Part shown: positions 9,265 through 42,322 of the stretch, piece by piece | Numbering within the stretch: position 1 is the first letter of the stretch | Layout of the letters: each line of letters begins with the position of its first letter | From: Methanothrix sp. | Lineage (GTDB): Archaea > Halobacteriota > Methanosarcinia > Methanotrichales > Methanotrichaceae | Direction of reading: 5' to 3' | DNA length: 64,000 nucleotides | Assembly (NCBI GenBank): GCA_026394555.1 | Contig: JAPKXZ010000074.1 | Location: forward strand, 92,424-156,423 | Program-made: the position numbers and the translations under genes | The notes under the pieces: generated by a model | What the model was told of the DNA's origin: nothing | What the model saw: only the letters and a program-made list of their open reading frames with translations | The model's database searches: none

Positions 9265-10761
9265 ATGTCTCGCTTTCTCGTGATCCTCGGCACCACCTCC
9301 CATTCCGGCAAGAGCACTCTTGTTGCCGCCCTCTGCCGCCTGCTCTCCGATCGCGGCTTCAGAGTCGCGCCCTTCAAGTCCCAGAATATGAGCCTCAACT
9401 CCTGGGTCACCCAAAACGGCTCGGAGATCGGCATCGCCCAGGCGGTGCAGGCCTGGGCGGCCCGCATTGAGCCGACGGAGTTCATGAATCCCATCCTGCT
9501 CAAGCCTAAGGGCGACCGCACCTCTCAGGTCATCGTCCTGGGCAGTCCCGTGGCCGACAAATCGGCAGAGGAGTACTATCGCGAGATCGATGGGCTCAAG
9601 GGGGTGGTGGACCGATCTTTGCAGGAGCTGGAGAAGGACTACGACTACATAGTAGTAGAAGGCGCGGGCGGAGCGGCAGAGATCAACCTCTACGATCGGG
9701 ATATCGCCAATATCTACGTGGCCCGCCTCCTAAGGGCTTCAATAATCCTGGTAGGGGACATCGAGCGGGGTGGCGTCTTCGCCAGCCTTTTCGGCACGGT
9801 GCAGCTTTTGCCCGATGACATCCGGCCACTCGTAAAAGGCCTGGTTATCAACAAATTCCGGGGCGATCCTGCCATCTTGGGCAGCGGCCTGAAGACGCTG
9901 GAAGAGCTCACCGGCGTCCCCGTGCTGGGCGTCCTGCCCTACCTGGATCTAGACATACCCTCCGAGGACTCTGTCTCTTTAGGCGACAAGAAAGCGGGGC
10001 CCGCGGGCGAGCAGGTCGATATCGCGGTGATCAGGCTGCCGCGCATCAGCAACTTCACCGACTTCGAACCCTTGGAACGGCTGGCGCGTATTCGCTACGT
10101 TGGCCTCTCGGAAGAGCTGGGCTGCCCGGATGCGGTGATCATTCCCGGCACCAAGAACACCGTCTCCGACCTCTTGGAGATGCAGGAAAAAGGTATGGCC
10201 GATCAGATAAAATCCCTGCCGGACACTCCGGTCCTGGGCATCTGCGGAGGCTACCAGATGCTGGGCCGGGCGATCATTGACTGCGGCATTGAGGAGACCG
10301 TGGGAACAATCCCCGGTCTGGGTCTGCTGGATGCTGTGACCCGCTTCGACCTTTATGAGAAGAGGACGGTGCAGGTGAAAAAGACAGTTACGGGCAGCGG
10401 CCCCATCCTGGAGCCGATCCGCGGCCAAATCGTCACAGGCTATGAGATTCACATGGGTATGACCAGCCCCCAGGGGCAAAAGGCCTTCGGAGACGACGGC
10501 GCTGTATCGGAAAGCGGAATGGTGATAGGCACCTATCTGCATGGCATCTTCGAGAATGAAAACTTCCGCAATGCTTTTCTCGAATTCCTGCGCCGCCGCA
10601 AAAATCCCGGCCAGGACCAAGAATTGTTCCCCAAGACGGAAATAGGGACGAAGGCTGCGAAGGGAGATGGCTTCGCGAAGCTTGCCGCGGCGGTAGAGGC
10701 AAACTTGGATATGGAGAAGATCTGGCGAATGATTGACCTGGATTCGCCTTGTGCGCCGTAA
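9265..10761 (+). CDS. cobQ: Cobyric acid synthase
   Basis: MSRFLVILGTTSHSGKSTLVAALCRLLSDRG...SQNMSLNSWVT...GTYLHGIFEN; GICGGYQML GATase site. Confidence 0.95.
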   Translation: MSRFLVILGTTSHSGKSTLVAALCRLLSDRGFRVAPFKSQNMSLNSWVTQNGSEIGIAQAVQAWAARIEPTEFMNPILLKPKGDRTSQVIVLGSPVADKSAEEYYREIDGLKGVVDRSLQELEKDYDYIVVEGAGGAAEINLYDRDIANIYVARLLRASIILVGDIERGGVFASLFGTVQLLPDDIRPLVKGLVINKFRGDPAILGSGLKTLEELTGVPVLGVLPYLDLDIPSEDSVSLGDKKAGPAGEQVDIAVIRLPRISNFTDFEPLERLARIRYVGLSEELGCPDAVIIPGTKNTVSDLLEMQEKGMADQIKSLPDTPVLGICGGYQMLGRAIIDCGIEETVGTIPGLGLLDAVTRFDLYEKRTVQVKKTVTGSGPILEPIRGQIVTGYEIHMGMTSPQGQKAFGDDGAVSESGMVIGTYLHGIFENENFRNAFLEFLRRRKNPGQDQELFPKTEIGTKAAKGDGFAKLAAAVEANLDMEKIWRMIDLDSPCAP

Positions 10762-10764
10762 AAC

Positions 10765-12081
10765 ATGATGAAACTGGGCGTGCTCTTCTCAGGCGGCAAG
10801 GACTCGGTCTTTGCCTGCCACCGGGCCATGGAAAAGAACCAGGTAGCCTGCCTGATAACTCTGGTCTCGGAGAACCCGGACAGCTACATGTTCCACACGC
10901 CCAACATTCGCCACACCGACCTGCAAGCGAAGGCCATGGGCATTCCCCTGCTCACCTGGCCCACGTACGGCATCAAAGAGGAGGAGCTGGCGGACCTGGC
11001 GGCGGCCATTACCGCCGCCCGGGAGAGATACGGCATCAGGGGAATCGTCACCGGAGCCATTGAGTCTGTCTACCAGGCGGCGCGTGTACAGAGGATCTGT
11101 CGCGACCAAGATATCTGGTGCTATAATCCCCTCTGGCAGACAAATCAGATCGATTACCTCCGCAGACTTTTAAAAGAAAACTTTTCCATCATCATCTCCG
11201 GGGTCTATGCCTATCCCTTCGATGCCTCCTGGTTGGGTGCAGAGTTGACGGAGGAGCGCATCCAAATGATGGAGCAGCTCCAGAAAAAATACAAGATAAA
11301 TCCCTCTGGTGAGGGCGGAGAGCTGGAGACCTATGTCCTGGATGGCCCCCTTTTCCAGAAGAGAATTGAGATCATGAAGGCATCCCAGAGCTATGCCAAC
11401 TATCGGGGGCAGTTTGTCATAGAAGATATGCAACTGGTGGGGAAACCGGGGAAGGCAATAAGTTCGGAAATGGACGGGAAAAATCCGTACGAAGGACAAA
11501 ATCCAACGGAGATGATGCATCAGAGGTCGTGCATCCTTCTGGTTGACCTGTGCTATGAAAAAGACTCCTTATCCCGGTACGAATTTGTCCACCCCATTAG
11601 AGATACGCTACAAAAATTGGGCTTTCTTTGCAACATTTTGCATTATACCGAGGTCAAGCCGCCGCATCTCGCCAACTACGATAAAATTATCCTTTGCGGA
11701 ACGGCCCTGATGGACAATGTTTATGCCGAGCATTTAGAGCTCTTCTCCTGGATAAAGGATTGCAAAAAGCCCATTTTAGGAATCTGCGCCGGCATGCAGG
11801 TCATCAGCGCCGTTTATGGCGGATCGATAGTGTCAAATCGGGCAATCGGCCTGGAAGAGATAGAGGTCGTCAGGGATTCATCGCTGCTGGGCGAGCCGCG
11901 GCAGATAGAAGTCTATCACCTTCATAACTATGCAGTGACATTGCCGGAGGGATTCCTGCAGCTGGCGGGAAGGACGAACGACATAGAGGCCTTCTTGCAC
12001 TACATGAAACCCATCTTCGGTGTATTATTCCACCCCGAGGTCAGGAATAGATGGATTTTGGATAAATTTGCGTGTTTGTAA
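10765..12081 (+). CDS. Fusion: Dph6/DUF71-type ATP-pyrophosphatase (diphthamide synthetase-like) with C-terminal class I glutamine amidotransferase
   Basis: N-term MMKLGVLFSGGKDSVFACHRA...GAIESVYQAARV...GEGGELETYVLDGPLF (Dph6). C-term PILGICAGMQVISAVYGG...VEVYHLHNYAV-like...FGVLFHPEV (GATase1 Cys and His-Glu). Confidence 0.9.
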   Translation: MMKLGVLFSGGKDSVFACHRAMEKNQVACLITLVSENPDSYMFHTPNIRHTDLQAKAMGIPLLTWPTYGIKEEELADLAAAITAARERYGIRGIVTGAIESVYQAARVQRICRDQDIWCYNPLWQTNQIDYLRRLLKENFSIIISGVYAYPFDASWLGAELTEERIQMMEQLQKKYKINPSGEGGELETYVLDGPLFQKRIEIMKASQSYANYRGQFVIEDMQLVGKPGKAISSEMDGKNPYEGQNPTEMMHQRSCILLVDLCYEKDSLSRYEFVHPIRDTLQKLGFLCNILHYTEVKPPHLANYDKIILCGTALMDNVYAEHLELFSWIKDCKKPILGICAGMQVISAVYGGSIVSNRAIGLEEIEVVRDSSLLGEPRQIEVYHLHNYAVTLPEGFLQLAGRTNDIEAFLHYMKPIFGVLFHPEVRNRWILDKFACL

Positions 12082-15880: not shown

Positions 15881-16861
15881 ATGTTCGACGATCTTAATAT
15901 CCTGGTCACGGGTGGAACGGGCTCTTTCGGCAGGAAGTTCACAGAGATAATGCTTCGCGAATACAGCCCTAGACGGCTGGTAATCTTTAGCAGAGGCGAA
16001 CTCAAACAGCATGAGATGCGCCAGATATTTCCCGACACGGGAAACTCCCCGGTGCGTTACTTCATTGGCGATGTAAGAGATAAAGAGCGCCTTTACAGAG
16101 CCTTCAATAAAGTTGATGTGGTTATACATGCCGCTGCTCTTAAGCAGGTTCCTGCTTGCGAATATAATCCATTTGAAGCTATTCAGACCAATATCATCGG
16201 TGCTAAGAATGTGATAGATGCGGCTATTGATCGCGGTGTGAAAACGGTCATGGCCATTAGCACGGATAAAGCCGTCAACCCCATCAATCTTTATGGTGCG
16301 ACTAAGCTATGTGCCGAGAAGATGTTCGTCCAGGCCAATGCCTATTCCGGCGTTGAAGGCCCCAAATTTTCCGTATGCCGCTATGGAAATGTTGTTGGCA
16401 GCCGTGGCAGCGTCATGCCCCTCTTCAAGAAACAACGTGAGTGTGGAACAGTTACGGTTACGGATCCTCGCATGACCAGGTTTTGGATCACCCTCAATCG
16501 GGGCGTTAGGTTTGTGATGCAGTGCACAGAAGATATGCATGGCGGTGAGATATTCGTGCCCAAGATTCCCAGCTCCAAGATCATGGATCTGACGCAAGCG
16601 ATGGCACCCGGGTGCGCCGTAAACTACATCGGTATTAGGGGCGGAGAGAAGCTGCATGAGGTTCTTGTCTCTGAAGATGAGGCTAGACATGCCGTTGTGC
16701 TGGATGATAAGTATGTGATCATGCCCACTCATCCCTGGTGGAAAGTGGAAAACTGGGCGGGCTCCACGAGGATGGAAGAAGGCTCAAGCTATTCCAGTGA
16801 CAGCAACGAAGAGTGGTTATCCGTGGAGGAGTTGAGACGGCTTGGCGAGGGCGAGGAGTGA
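15881..16861 (+). CDS. pseB: UDP-N-acetylglucosamine 4,6-dehydratase (inverting)
   Basis: ILVTGGTGSFGRKFTEIML...VVIHAAALKQVPACEYNPFEAIQTNIIGAKNVIDAA...ISTDKAVNPINLYGATKL. Confidence 0.93.
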   Translation: MFDDLNILVTGGTGSFGRKFTEIMLREYSPRRLVIFSRGELKQHEMRQIFPDTGNSPVRYFIGDVRDKERLYRAFNKVDVVIHAAALKQVPACEYNPFEAIQTNIIGAKNVIDAAIDRGVKTVMAISTDKAVNPINLYGATKLCAEKMFVQANAYSGVEGPKFSVCRYGNVVGSRGSVMPLFKKQRECGTVTVTDPRMTRFWITLNRGVRFVMQCTEDMHGGEIFVPKIPSSKIMDLTQAMAPGCAVNYIGIRGGEKLHEVLVSEDEARHAVVLDDKYVIMPTHPWWKVENWAGSTRMEEGSSYSSDSNEEWLSVEELRRLGEGEE

Positions 16862-18047
16862 AGAAAAGCTGGCGATAGAGGGCGGAAGGCCGGTGCGCCG
16901 GACTTTTCTTCCCTATGGACATCAGAGCATCGATGAAGAGGACATCCAAGCAGTAGTTCGAGTCCTTCAATCCGACTGGATCACTACTGGCCCCAAGGTC
17001 GTCGAATTTGAGGAAGCCTTTACAGGTCGCGTGGACGCAAAGCACGCGGTTGCCTTCAGCTCCGGCACTGCCGCCCTGCACGGTGCGGCCTATGCTGCTG
17101 GCCTGCAGCCGGGTGACGAGGCCATCACCACGCCCATGACTTTTTGCGCTACTGCTAATTGCATTCTCTACCAGGGTGCAACACCTGTATTTGCCGATGT
17201 TACTGCCGATACTCTAAACATTAATCCTGAAGACGTGGCAAGCCGCATAACGGAAAAAACAAAGGCCATCATACCTGTGGATTATGCCGGCCATCCGGCA
17301 GATCTCGATCCGATTAGGGAGCTGGCCGAGGAGAGGAACCTCATAGTAATCGAGGATGCCTGCCACGCCCTTGGTGCCGGATACAAAGGAAAACAGGTGG
17401 GCGGGATTTGTGATATGACCGTCTTCAGCTTTCATCCTGTCAAACACATCACCACAGGGGAAGGCGGCATGGTTACCACTGACGATGCTGATATGGCAGC
17501 AAGACTGCGGCTTTTTCGCAATCACGGGATAGAGGGCGATGCCCGGCAGCGCCAGGCAAAAGGGCAGTGGTATTATGAAATGGTGGATCTGGGATACAAT
17601 TATCGTCTCACAGATATCGGTTGCGCACTCGGGCAGTCGCAGCTAAAGAAGTTGGATCAGAACCTTTCTCGCAGGCGAGAGATAGCAGCGTGCTATAATG
17701 CTGCATTAAAAGACATCCACGGGATTATATTGCCGACGGTAAAAAAAGAGGCTTTGCCAGCCTGGCATTTGTATCCGATCCGGTTCGATCAATCATCTTT
17801 TCGTGCCGGACGGACAGAGATCTTTGCTGCTCTGCGAGCGGAGAACATAGGCGTAAACGTCCACTATATCCCAGTCCACACTCATCCCTTTTACCAGAAA
17901 CGCTTTGGCTATCATGGCAACGAGTATCCGGTTGCACAGGCCGCTTATGAGACCCTTATATCCTTGCCCATGTTCCATGGCATGACTGATCAGGATGCAG
18001 AAAACGTAATCGATGCGACAGAGAAGGTGTTTGGGCATTATGCATAA
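16842..18047 (+). CDS. pseC: UDP-4-amino-4,6-dideoxy-N-acetyl-beta-L-altrosamine transaminase
   Basis: FLPYGHQSIDEEDIQAVVRVLQSDWITTGPKV...FSFHPVKHITTGEGGMVTTDD; TTG start overlapping pseB. Confidence 0.93.
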   Translation: MARARSEEKLAIEGGRPVRRTFLPYGHQSIDEEDIQAVVRVLQSDWITTGPKVVEFEEAFTGRVDAKHAVAFSSGTAALHGAAYAAGLQPGDEAITTPMTFCATANCILYQGATPVFADVTADTLNINPEDVASRITEKTKAIIPVDYAGHPADLDPIRELAEERNLIVIEDACHALGAGYKGKQVGGICDMTVFSFHPVKHITTGEGGMVTTDDADMAARLRLFRNHGIEGDARQRQAKGQWYYEMVDLGYNYRLTDIGCALGQSQLKKLDQNLSRRREIAACYNAALKDIHGIILPTVKKEALPAWHLYPIRFDQSSFRAGRTEIFAALRAENIGVNVHYIPVHTHPFYQKRFGYHGNEYPVAQAAYETLISLPMFHGMTDQDAENVIDATEKVFGHYA

Positions 18048-38597: not shown

Positions 38598-40502
38598 TCA
38601 TAGTTGCTGCTTGAATATTGATTTCAATATCTCCTTTATCGAGATAGCTGAGTTTATAAATTCTGCAAGTTTGTCGGGGTATAATCCCAGTACTATAATA
38701 AAAATGAGCCATGCTACTTCCATTATTTCAATGATTATTAAATCCAAAATTTCAAGTTTAGGTCTGAATGTTGGAATCGGCATAATTATATAAACGATTA
38801 CTGAGATCACAGCCACCTGTGCGATGATCATACCTATCACGCTAATAGTACTATTTAATTCGTATATGTTTAGATCATCATTTACCATCTTTGCTATAAA
38901 TTTATTAGTTCTACCGTTATCTATTTCTAAAAAAACTTCAGTTTTTTTATCGTTAAGTCTTAGTGAAAGAAAATTATTTTCAGTAGATACTTTGATCGCC
39001 TTGCTATTTTCAATTCTTTCAATTTTTGCATTTTTTACCCAATCAATACCAAATTTCTTTGTTAGAAATTCTTTGAGTCTACCCTCATCCTTTCCTGGAA
39101 TTTTATCCCAGCTAAACACATACTTTAATTCTTTTGTTGAGGGGGATATGGTATCTTTAATTGTATGTCTATTTACGAGGATGAATCGCAAAAAATCTAA
39201 AAATATTGCAAGCAAAACTGCGATTAAAATCCTTTGAGATAAAATGCTTGGCAAAAAATAATGAAACGATAATACACCACTAAACAGTCCTATTATTATC
39301 TTACCAAAATTCCACCAATTGAGGGGGTGACAATCATTTTCGTTACACAGCATATATATTGTAAATAATAAAAACGAAACAATCATCATTGAAGATTCTA
39401 TCCACACGAGACTTCTATAATGATTGTCTGAGCAGAAATAATAATAATATAGTCCTAAATGCGTTAATATCAATATTGGTATAATCAATATTGGTATAAT
39501 ATGTATTGTTAGTCTTTGTTTATTCGCCCATATGCTAGGCTTTTTTGAAAGTACGTGTATGAATATTAAAATCAGTATGGCTACAAATAATGCTTGTACC
39601 AGCGAAATGTATGAGTCCCTGCTTCGGTGGTATTCAACTAAATCTACAACTTCAAGAAATTTGCTATTATTTGTAAAATTATTATCAATTAAATCACATG
39701 CTTTTATTTGAAATTGGTGAGTTCCTAAGTCAATTATTTCGGATCCACTTTCAATATTAGAGCCAATTTTTTTATCAAAATACTCTATGTAGATCTGATC
39801 ATTGTCTGAGTCATAGCACTTACTAGAAAAATTAATTTTTGAATATCTAAATACGGTCACATTTGGCCCATTCGAGCAAGTGATATTACACTCAGGTTCT
39901 ACATTTACGTTGAATTCAGTTATTACTGGTTTATTATTAGTTACTTTAAAAGATTCAACCAATTTATTTTTGTCATTTTTTTTATAATCCCATTGGAAAG
40001 TTTTAATCAAGCAAATATCCTGAGGTTCTTGAGAAGTTTCATTTTCTACCTTAGTGATATATTTGACTAATATTTTCTCTTTTTTATTCAATGAGGTGAG
40101 GTGTATTTTCATTATTCTATCCGGACCAATTTCTGCCGAATCACCTCGGCCTTCGTTGTGGTTATTAAAATTGCTATAAATACTTATTTTTCCCTCATTG
40201 CTTTCATTTACCATTTTACCGTTTTCATTGCCGATTCTTATTGTCTGGCTCGGTACAGCAAGCGATTTAGACAGCAAAGCAACCAAATTAAAATCGTGGG
40301 CATCTACGTCTTTCTCTATATTTATAATATTGAAATATATTTGAATGCACTGGTCGCGGCCTACAATTTCTTTATCAGGTATTACCGTTAAATTCAATTC
40401 AGATAATCTATCTCCGCTGTGGTCTACTCCACCCATGCATCCAATACGTACCATGCTTATGATTATTAAGACAGAAAAAATTAATATATATTTCGCGCTC
40501 AT
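38598..40502 (-). CDS. Large membrane protein, N-terminal exported domain plus multiple TM helices
   Basis: N-term hydrophobic segment, extracytoplasmic Cys-containing region, then several TM segments (VQALFVAILILIFIHVL, IIPILIIPILILTHLGLYYYYF, MMIVSFLLFTIYMLC and others). Confidence 0.75.
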   Translation of the reverse strand: MSAKYILIFSVLIIISMVRIGCMGGVDHSGDRLSELNLTVIPDKEIVGRDQCIQIYFNIINIEKDVDAHDFNLVALLSKSLAVPSQTIRIGNENGKMVNESNEGKISIYSNFNNHNEGRGDSAEIGPDRIMKIHLTSLNKKEKILVKYITKVENETSQEPQDICLIKTFQWDYKKNDKNKLVESFKVTNNKPVITEFNVNVEPECNITCSNGPNVTVFRYSKINFSSKCYDSDNDQIYIEYFDKKIGSNIESGSEIIDLGTHQFQIKACDLIDNNFTNNSKFLEVVDLVEYHRSRDSYISLVQALFVAILILIFIHVLSKKPSIWANKQRLTIHIIPILIIPILILTHLGLYYYYFCSDNHYRSLVWIESSMMIVSFLLFTIYMLCNENDCHPLNWWNFGKIIIGLFSGVLSFHYFLPSILSQRILIAVLLAIFLDFLRFILVNRHTIKDTISPSTKELKYVFSWDKIPGKDEGRLKEFLTKKFGIDWVKNAKIERIENSKAIKVSTENNFLSLRLNDKKTEVFLEIDNGRTNKFIAKMVNDDLNIYELNSTISVIGMIIAQVAVISVIVYIIMPIPTFRPKLEILDLIIIEIMEVAWLIFIIVLGLYPDKLAEFINSAISIKEILKSIFKQQL

Positions 40503-42322
40503 GGGGCCACATCGGTCGCTTTATCTACTTTATTAAATGGATGATTGTTGTTTATATGATACATTTCTAGCTCAGTTATATTGTATTTTTCTGGTCCTTT
40601 TACTCCGATCCCTACGGTTGCATACTCAAATTCGTTTTGTTTAATTTGCATAATTGTATTATTGTCACAATTATACATTTTAATACAATAATTTATCTTT
40701 TGTGAATTTTTCGGCTGGCGTAATTCGGCATTCAATTTATTTAGTGTTATTATAAAATTGTTGCAATTTTCAAGATCTATGCATATTCGTTCGGTATTTA
40801 TATACTGCATAAGATTATAAACACGATTGTTGCTTATATTACTATTGTTACATGTTCTAAATCGGATCGCGCCTCCACATTGAGATATATCATTATCTAT
40901 TATGCGTATATTTGTTAGCTTGTTTTTTAGTCCATCTATGTCTATCCCATAAGAACCGTTCTTAATTGCCAACCCACGTATCTCAACGTCACTTCCACAT
41001 ATTGAAATGACGCTAGTACTCGCTATGCTTTTTGGCCTAGGATCTAATAAGGGCCTATTTCTACCAATTATTGTCAATGGTTTGTTAATTATAATCTGCT
41101 CGTTATAAACTCCACGATCTATAATAATTCTTCCGAAATTGTCAGTTTTATTAATGGCTTGGCTAATTGTCGGAAAAATAAACCTGGATTCGTCACGATT
41201 CGACTGATTTACGTATGTTGTGCTATTATTCTTAGCTATTCTAAAATATGTGCTTCTGGTGGAATTGCACAAAGATCCACACTCGCAACATTTTACCATC
41301 CATTCATGAGACCCTTCATCAATGGGCCTCTTATTTAATATCAGTTCATTCCTATCATTTTTTAATTTATGAGAGTAGGCCCATTCATGGTCATCTATAA
41401 TTAATGTGCAGTTTACAACCCTGCTGCTGTTATTAAGCATATATTCAAATTTTAATTTGCTTTCATTAGATAATGTCTCATTTTCTTTTGGTGATATCGG
41501 TTCTATAGAAATCTTGCCATCGATAGGGCAAGGATTTTGTGGGGTGTACTTTATCTCCTTAATAACTACAGTTATATTTGGTTTGAGCTCGATGCCCGAA
41601 CCGTTATTCCCAACGGATTTCAGACTTCTCTGGCCCAAATCAGGAGTAGCTAATCCCGTGTTCGCTAATAAGTTAGCCACAGTCGATGCATTATTATCGC
41701 TACGTTCCAAGGGTCGGCTTGTCCCTACATCCACATATTCTCCGGTTCCCTGCTGGTCCATTCTAACTAAACCGATATTGTCTATCCAGCCAGCTCCGCC
41801 CCACAATGGATACGACTTGATCTTTCTAAAGGTCCACTCCAAGATATGAGATCTATCTGCATTCAATGGATAGCTGAAGTCAGTCCAATCGCGAGAATTA
41901 CATTCGAAGGTTCTATTTTCATCCACACTGAATATCAATTGACCTATTCCCGACCCAGCATCATTCTTCCATTTAAACCGTATTATGGCAGGTCCCGATA
42001 TATTATTCATCTTAAGACTGCTTGCACCTACACATTCAATAGGTCCTGATTTAAGAGAGATTTTATCATTATAACCACTTGTATAATCGATTGTCCAGGG
42101 AATTTCGCCAATCTTTGACCAATATAAATAATTTTGAATAGGATAATTAATAACATTACTCGGCTCTTGTGCAAGCACAATGGGCAAAAAGATCTCTGCT
42201 AGAAGTACCATAATTGAGAGCAGCATCCATTTGAGACATCTGTTTGCCCTCGGTGACATTTGATTTAGCTCCCATACTTTAGTCCAAATGCATTCCGTTT
42301 TAAATGCGAACACAGTTATCAA
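40499..42322 (-). CDS. Exported right-handed beta-helix (NosD/pectate-lyase-like) protein
   Basis: TFPTISQAINKTDNFGRIIIDRGVYNEQIIINKPLTIIGRNRPLLDP-like segment, then ...IRGLAIKNGSYGIDIDG...ISNNRVYNLMQY; 4-bp overlap with the downstream gene. Confidence 0.8.
   Translation of the reverse strand: MITVFAFKTECIWTKVWELNQMSPRANRCLKWMLLSIMVLLAEIFLPIVLAQEPSNVINYPIQNYLYWSKIGEIPWTIDYTSGYNDKISLKSGPIECVGASSLKMNNISGPAIIRFKWKNDAGSGIGQLIFSVDENRTFECNSRDWTDFSYPLNADRSHILEWTFRKIKSYPLWGGAGWIDNIGLVRMDQQGTGEYVDVGTSRPLERSDNNASTVANLLANTGLATPDLGQRSLKSVGNNGSGIELKPNITVVIKEIKYTPQNPCPIDGKISIEPISPKENETLSNESKLKFEYMLNNSSRVVNCTLIIDDHEWAYSHKLKNDRNELILNKRPIDEGSHEWMVKCCECGSLCNSTRSTYFRIAKNNSTTYVNQSNRDESRFIFPTISQAINKTDNFGRIIIDRGVYNEQIIINKPLTIIGRNRPLLDPRPKSIASTSVISICGSDVEIRGLAIKNGSYGIDIDGLKNKLTNIRIIDNDISQCGGAIRFRTCNNSNISNNRVYNLMQYINTERICIDLENCNNFIITLNKLNAELRQPKNSQKINYCIKMYNCDNNTIMQIKQNEFEYATVGIGVKGPEKYNITELEMYHINNNHPFNKVDKATDVAP

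Follow-up and report, generated by a model that had tools for sequence, protein, structure and literature searches.

The window analysed here, a stretch of 64,000 nucleotides from a Methanothrix draft genome, encodes a 438-residue protein in which a Dph6-type ATP-pyrophosphatase (DUF71) is joined to a class I glutamine amidotransferase (GATase). This fusion is probably the host's Dph6 (diphthine--ammonia ligase), made glutamine-dependent by its dedicated GATase. An earlier note on this DNA had offered a glutamine-dependent diphthamide synthetase as one of several readings, and it emerges as the best supported on sequence evidence: the protein passes the Dph6 family cut-off, it is the only DUF71 protein found in the genome, EF-2, Dph2 and Dph5 are present, and, in the phylum sampled, GATases of this type were seen only with one clade of Dph6.

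Domain composition and predicted structure

The open reading frame (ORF) starts with ATG and contains no internal stop (Table 1). Pfam assigned residues 2–222 to Diphthami_syn_2 (PF01902, E = 2e-62) and residues 274–427 to class I GATase (PF00117, E = 1e-22), and the N-terminal part scored 277.3 bits against the curated NCBIfam equivalog TIGR03679 (Dph6_archaeal), above its cut-off of 197.3. The catalytic triad of the GATase domain is intact (GICAGMQ with Cys341, FHPEV with His423 and Glu425). ORF, Pfam, NCBIfam and motif evidence thus confirmed the original description of a single uninterrupted frame joining Dph6 to a class I GATase with a complete triad. Among curated models the GATase domain best resembled GMP synthase subunit A (GuaAa), with scores well under the membership cut-offs (PRK00758, 77.5 versus 198 bits; TIGR00888, 70.8 versus 172 bits). 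An AsnB-type class II GATase fusion was ruled out, as Pfam found neither GATase_7 nor Asn_synthase in the window protein, both of which were detected in an AsnB-type comparison protein (L236).

Table 1. Positions in the window of the fusion gene and of the elements of its product.
Feature	Window position	Strand	Basis
dph6-GATase fusion gene, 438 aa	10765..12081	+	ORF, Pfam, NCBIfam; same fusion in 12 other genomes
Dph6/DUF71 N-type ATP-pyrophosphatase domain, residues 2-227	10768..11445	+	PF01902, TIGR03679, model match 3rk1
SGGKDS PP-loop, residues 9-14	10789..10806	+	invariant in alignment A1 (15 homologues)
EGGELE (Dph6 EGG(D/E)xE motif), residues 183-188	11311..11328	+	E183, G184, G185, E186 and E188 invariant in A1 (15 homologues)
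Inter-domain linker, residues 228-253 (~26), predicted disordered	11446..11523	+	pLDDT <50 at residues 230-252
Class I glutamine amidotransferase domain, residues 254-437	11524..12075	+	PF00117; model matches 2a9v, 2d7j, 7d97
CGT, residues 311-313, putative oxyanion-hole loop	11695..11703	+	conservation of 95% or more among triad-intact GATases; role by analogy with class I GATases
Codon of nucleophile Cys341	11785..11787	+	Cys and His kept in 66/81 homologues; Ser or Ala in two clades
His423-Pro-Glu425, rest of catalytic triad	12031..12039	+	homologue alignment

The motif of the N-terminal domain is EGGELE, which conforms to the EGG(D/E)xE reported for Dph6 and differs from the ENGE(F/Y)H motif that marks a further group of DUF71 proteins (PMC3585130); the PAB0415 family was matched with 59.5 bits against a cut-off of 250. 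PMC3541065 proposes S44, Y45, E78, Y103, Q104, A149, E183, E186 and E188 as the EF-2-facing residues of PF0828, and their counterparts in the fusion (S40, Y41, E74, Y103, Q104, A149, E183, E186 and E188) are invariant in alignment A1. Sequence relatives with solved structures exist for both parts: PF0828 and PH1257 for the Dph6 domain, and GMP synthase GATase subunits for the GATase domain. An AlphaFold2 model of the fusion (pLDDT 85.8, pTM 0.82) agreed with these assignments when compared by Foldseek: its Dph6 domain matched PF0828 (3rk1) with a target-normalised TM-score of 0.93, and its GATase domain matched GMP synthase GATase subunits with a target-normalised TM-score of ~0.79, the matches to the class I GATase fold including 2a9v, 2d7j, 7d97 and 1gpm.

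Fused, split and degenerate forms of the Dph6-GATase pair

Whether the fusion recurs across archaea, a point raised with its first description, was addressed by comparison of genomes within the phylum of the host: it is present in 13 Methanothrix genomes including the host (14 loci, one of them broken by a frameshift), with linkers of 25–53 residues that diverge between genomes, and split pairs occur elsewhere in the phylum. The nearest named relatives of the fusion are those of two Methanothrix MAGs (85–88% identity over the whole length), because of which we assign the host family (f1) to the Methanotrichaceae on present sequence evidence. The GATase is present in 43 of the 50 genomes of this family, whose non-fusion members with a GATase carry two separate genes. 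A phylum-wide search of 393 genomes detected the GATase in 73, and the loci of most of these were read. The unfused pairs came from other Methanotrichaceae, from what we take to be Methanomicrobia-type (and Methanoculleus-type) and Archaeoglobus-type groups, and from two ANME-like genomes, the last label (family f4) being inferred from neighbouring genes such as one for a multihaem cytochrome-like protein. In all 86 of 86 unfused pairs the GATase gene lies on the same strand as dph6 and downstream of it, and in 73 of them the dph6 stop and the GATase start share a 4-nt ATGA/GTGA overlap. One pair (G240, L165:1666-2826) has a TnpB-like gene between dph6 and GATase, the sole pair in the sample seen split by a mobile element.

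Within the phylum of the host, the GATase was seen only behind one clade of Dph6, across many families. In a tree of 118 Dph6 sequences the class I GATase-associated members formed a single clade (support 99/95; 84 with GATase, two without), whose sister clade (99/92) contains Dph6 with an AsnB-type class II GATase, either in the same protein or encoded by an overlapping gene ahead of dph6; the latter arrangement, in G142 (L240:811-3034) and G154 (L241:1366-3559), mirrors the fused and split pattern of the class I pair. A separate group is formed by 18 stand-alone Dph6 genes, and for most of the remaining Dph6 genes in the sample there is no GATase partner. The fused state required one change on the tree, the single fused group having a support of 75/91; the Methanothrix fusion is a late, single derivative of the wider dph6-GATase pairing. 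In genera g71 and g76, some genomes with the class I pair matched Dph6 at 1e-90 to 1e-99 and others without it at 1e-39 to 1e-50. Judged from scores and not from a tree of these genes, this suggests that one Dph6 type has replaced the other, and it supports a common function.

Several genomes have Dph6 without this GATase. In G027 the locus (L073:4725-6710) is syntenic, with genes for an amidohydrolase, UspA, a CBS protein, cobQ and dph6 followed directly by an isopropylmalate/homocitrate synthase-like gene, and the GATase is missing: a clean loss in which Dph6 was kept. G367 also carries a Dph6 of the GATase-associated type, and no GATase was recognised close to it. Three members of the host family (G004, G048 and G049) carry a different stand-alone Dph6, 33–35% identical and also above the TIGR03679 cut-off. 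In G043 (genus g9), rated 99% complete, no Dph6 of any type was found, EF-2, Dph2 and Dph5 being present; the cause is either a gap in the assembly or a pathway that naturally ends at diphthine.

Conservation of the catalytic residues was examined in an alignment of 84 GATases, 81 of which are ungapped at both the Cys and the His position. Both residues are kept in 66 of the 81, and the Glu and the oxyanion glycine in all 81; every fused GATase aligned keeps the full set. The triad is broken in the other 15: five GATases of genus g9 in the host family, where Ser or Ala replaces the Cys and Asn, Asp or Ser the His; nine of genus g41, all with Ser for Cys and one with Tyr for His as well; and that of G287, of Archaeoglobus type, with Tyr for His. 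Five further g41 genomes also have Ser, so that all 14 of the 14 read share the substitution. Triad state required three changes on the tree, giving at least three losses; the broken GATases are therefore derived, and they still stand beside dph6, the g9 pairs having lost the 4-nt overlap as well. Median dN/dS was 0.25 (g9) and 0.32 (g41) for broken GATases versus 0.18–0.24 in triad-intact clades. The broken genes thus appear somewhat relaxed and still constrained, and because of these values they are unlikely to be simple pseudogenes. In genus g82 two GATases (G420 and G315; L170, ORF L170:2605-3429, and L171) have a low-complexity stretch, several dozen residues long, inserted between the Cys and His parts, with FHPEV retained.

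The three losses of the triad, together with the loss of the GATase in G027, indicate that not every lineage depends on the use of glutamine. That a gene without its triad stays beside dph6 in three lineages, under the constraint just described, speaks for a GATase that acts as a structural or regulatory partner of Dph6, for example as a glutamine sensor, a stabiliser or a part docking on EF-2, with Dph6 using free ammonium and glutamine hydrolysis not its main job. We nevertheless consider this unlikely, since the catalytic residues persist in most homologues and in all fused ones aligned, since the broken forms are derived, as in CPS1 (see below), and since an unrelated GATase, of class II, was recruited in the sister clade of Dph6, ammonia supply being the obvious feature that the two share. 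A tentative history, to which we give slightly less than even credence, is that one branch of Dph6 became a two-part glutamine-fed synthetase (the class I clade and its class II sister), and that in g41, g9 and one Archaeoglobus-type genome the GATase later died and was nonetheless kept, returning the enzyme to free ammonia. Ammonia-rich digesters are a known habitat of some Methanoculleus (PMC12776343); a link between such habitats and loss of the Cys is speculation.

Host pathway and alternative targets

The host genome (G000) is a draft of 2.53 Mb, 96% complete. A search of the whole assembly at E values up to 10 recovered the fusion as its only DUF71 protein; a second, stand-alone dph6, which by the earlier note would, together with a lack of EF2 amidation, have spoken against the proposed role, was not found in it. 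EF-2 is encoded in single copy, its diphthamide loop LHEDAVHRGPAQ (DAVHRGPAQ) containing the target His, and Dph2 (TIGR03682) and Dph5 (TIGR00522) are also present. A separate GuaAa-like gene (L002/L082), so labelled from similarity and motifs and not from a curated score, has 41% similarity to the GATase domain and the motifs GICLGMQ and WHPE. Elsewhere in the window, behind the dph6 locus, positions 15881-18047 hold a gene for PseB (UDP-GlcNAc 4,6-dehydratase; 489 bits versus a cut-off of 408) followed by an aminotransferase-like ORF, the predicted start of a pseudaminic-acid-type surface sugar cluster, and two adjoining ORFs of 634 and 607 residues on the minus strand (38598-42322) have no Pfam match at 1e-8.

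The gene directly upstream of the fusion is cobQ (TIGR00313, 600 bits), as first described, with three bases between the ORFs (stop ending at 10761, start at 10765). This neighbour had led to the suggestion that the fusion amidates a corrinoid or another cofactor instead of EF-2, and B12 salvage is predicted for a DUF71 subgroup (PMC3541065). However, cobQ precedes dph6 only in part of genus g1, other neighbours taking its place in other genera and families; because of this restriction the corrinoid role was rejected. A target other than EF-2 is further opposed by the EGGELE motif and the low PAB0415 score, and the host, which has EF-2, Dph2 and Dph5, would lack Dph6 without the fusion. We regard such a target as very unlikely.

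Gamma-glutamyl peptidases and hydrolases also have class I GATase folds and are among the structural matches of the GATase domain. A GATase that hydrolyses some other amide or gamma-glutamyl compound, and is tied to Dph6 for unrelated reasons, is nonetheless highly improbable: all pairs read, from several families, show the association with dph6, and a chance neighbour would not keep an overlapping reading frame. That the fusion arose as an artefact of annotation or, as a draft in 75 contigs might suggest and the earlier note had allowed, of assembly, is refuted because independent genomes carry it (12 further genomes with divergent linkers and two named Methanothrix MAGs), leaving this reading practically no chance.

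In the favoured reading, a glutamine-dependent diphthamide synthetase, the GATase would hydrolyse glutamine through Cys341, His423 and Glu425, and the ammonia would pass to the ATP-pyrophosphatase site of Dph6, where the carboxylate of diphthine on EF-2 would be activated by adenylation; formation of the amide on EF-2-bound diphthine would then release AMP and PPi. We infer in this scheme the glutaminase activity, the coupling of the two sites, the channel and EF-2 as the fusion protein's own substrate. In other organisms, Dph6 proteins that stand alone function with no GATase. By the same gene evidence, related archaea with overlapping dph6 and GATase genes may also make diphthamide with glutamine-derived ammonia, which suggests a function for many genes that lie nearest to the GMP synthase subunit A model with scores far under its cut-off.

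The fusion bears on the unsettled question of the ammonia source of diphthamide synthesis in vivo. In yeast, Dph6 bears RidA-like domains whose role is unclear, and in archaea it mostly has no added domain. Since fused, split, catalytically dead and GATase-less forms of one enzyme occur in relatives, these four natural forms make the question directly testable.

Comparison with known systems

GMP synthase consists of a class I GATase and an N-type ATP-pyrophosphatase and takes its ammonia from glutamine. The fusion shares this composition with GuaA, or with archaeal GuaAa plus GuaAb, and its GATase is nearest to GuaAa; it differs in its reversed domain order, its Dph6 synthetase partner, an acceptor that would be EF-2-bound diphthine, its GuaAa scores below cut-off and the separate GuaAa-like gene in the genome. 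Pyrococcus Dph6 (PF0828 and PH1257; PDB 3rk1 and 2d13) has the same P-loop, EGGxxE motif and fold as the whole N-terminal domain of the fusion, which passes the TIGR03679 cut-off; unlike Methanothrix Dph6, which bears a class I GATase, it is encoded by a single gene without one. Eukaryotic Dph6 resembles the fusion in having a C-terminal addition, of YjgF/RidA domains, proposed as an ammonia provider (PMC3541065 and PMC3585130), but the domain and its chemistry (imine deaminase-like) are unrelated. Human CPS1 retains an ancestral, inactive GATase-like domain in which Cys is replaced by Ser, and uses free ammonia (PMC4655335). The same substitution in a kept class I GATase is found in g41 and g9; the synthetase is a different one, and the likeness concerns these degenerate homologues and not the window protein.

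The closest parallel comes from De Crecy-Lagard et al. (2012), who identified Dph6 and reported that a few archaea (Methanohalophilus, Methanosalsum and others) have it fused to AsnB-type class II GATases, proposing that these supply NH3 (PMC3541065). There, too, a GATase is joined to Dph6, of the sister clade, but these proteins carry an N-terminal class II GATase_7 and an asparagine-synthetase PP-loop domain, whereas the Methanothrix protein has a C-terminal class I triad GATase and one PP-loop domain. A reviewer's query in the same paper asked which PP-loop domain of the AsnB-DUF71 fusion receives the NH3; the class I pair and fusion are free of this ambiguity because they have only one PP-loop partner. 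No description of a class I GATase-Dph6 pair or fusion was found in the accessible literature on diphthamide, DUF71 and glutamine amidotransferases, from which subscription journals were mostly absent; within that literature the class I pair appears undescribed, whereas class II GATase-Dph6 fusions have been known since 2012. The two arrangements suggest two separate gains of a glutamine amidotransferase by Dph6, the folds involved being unrelated.
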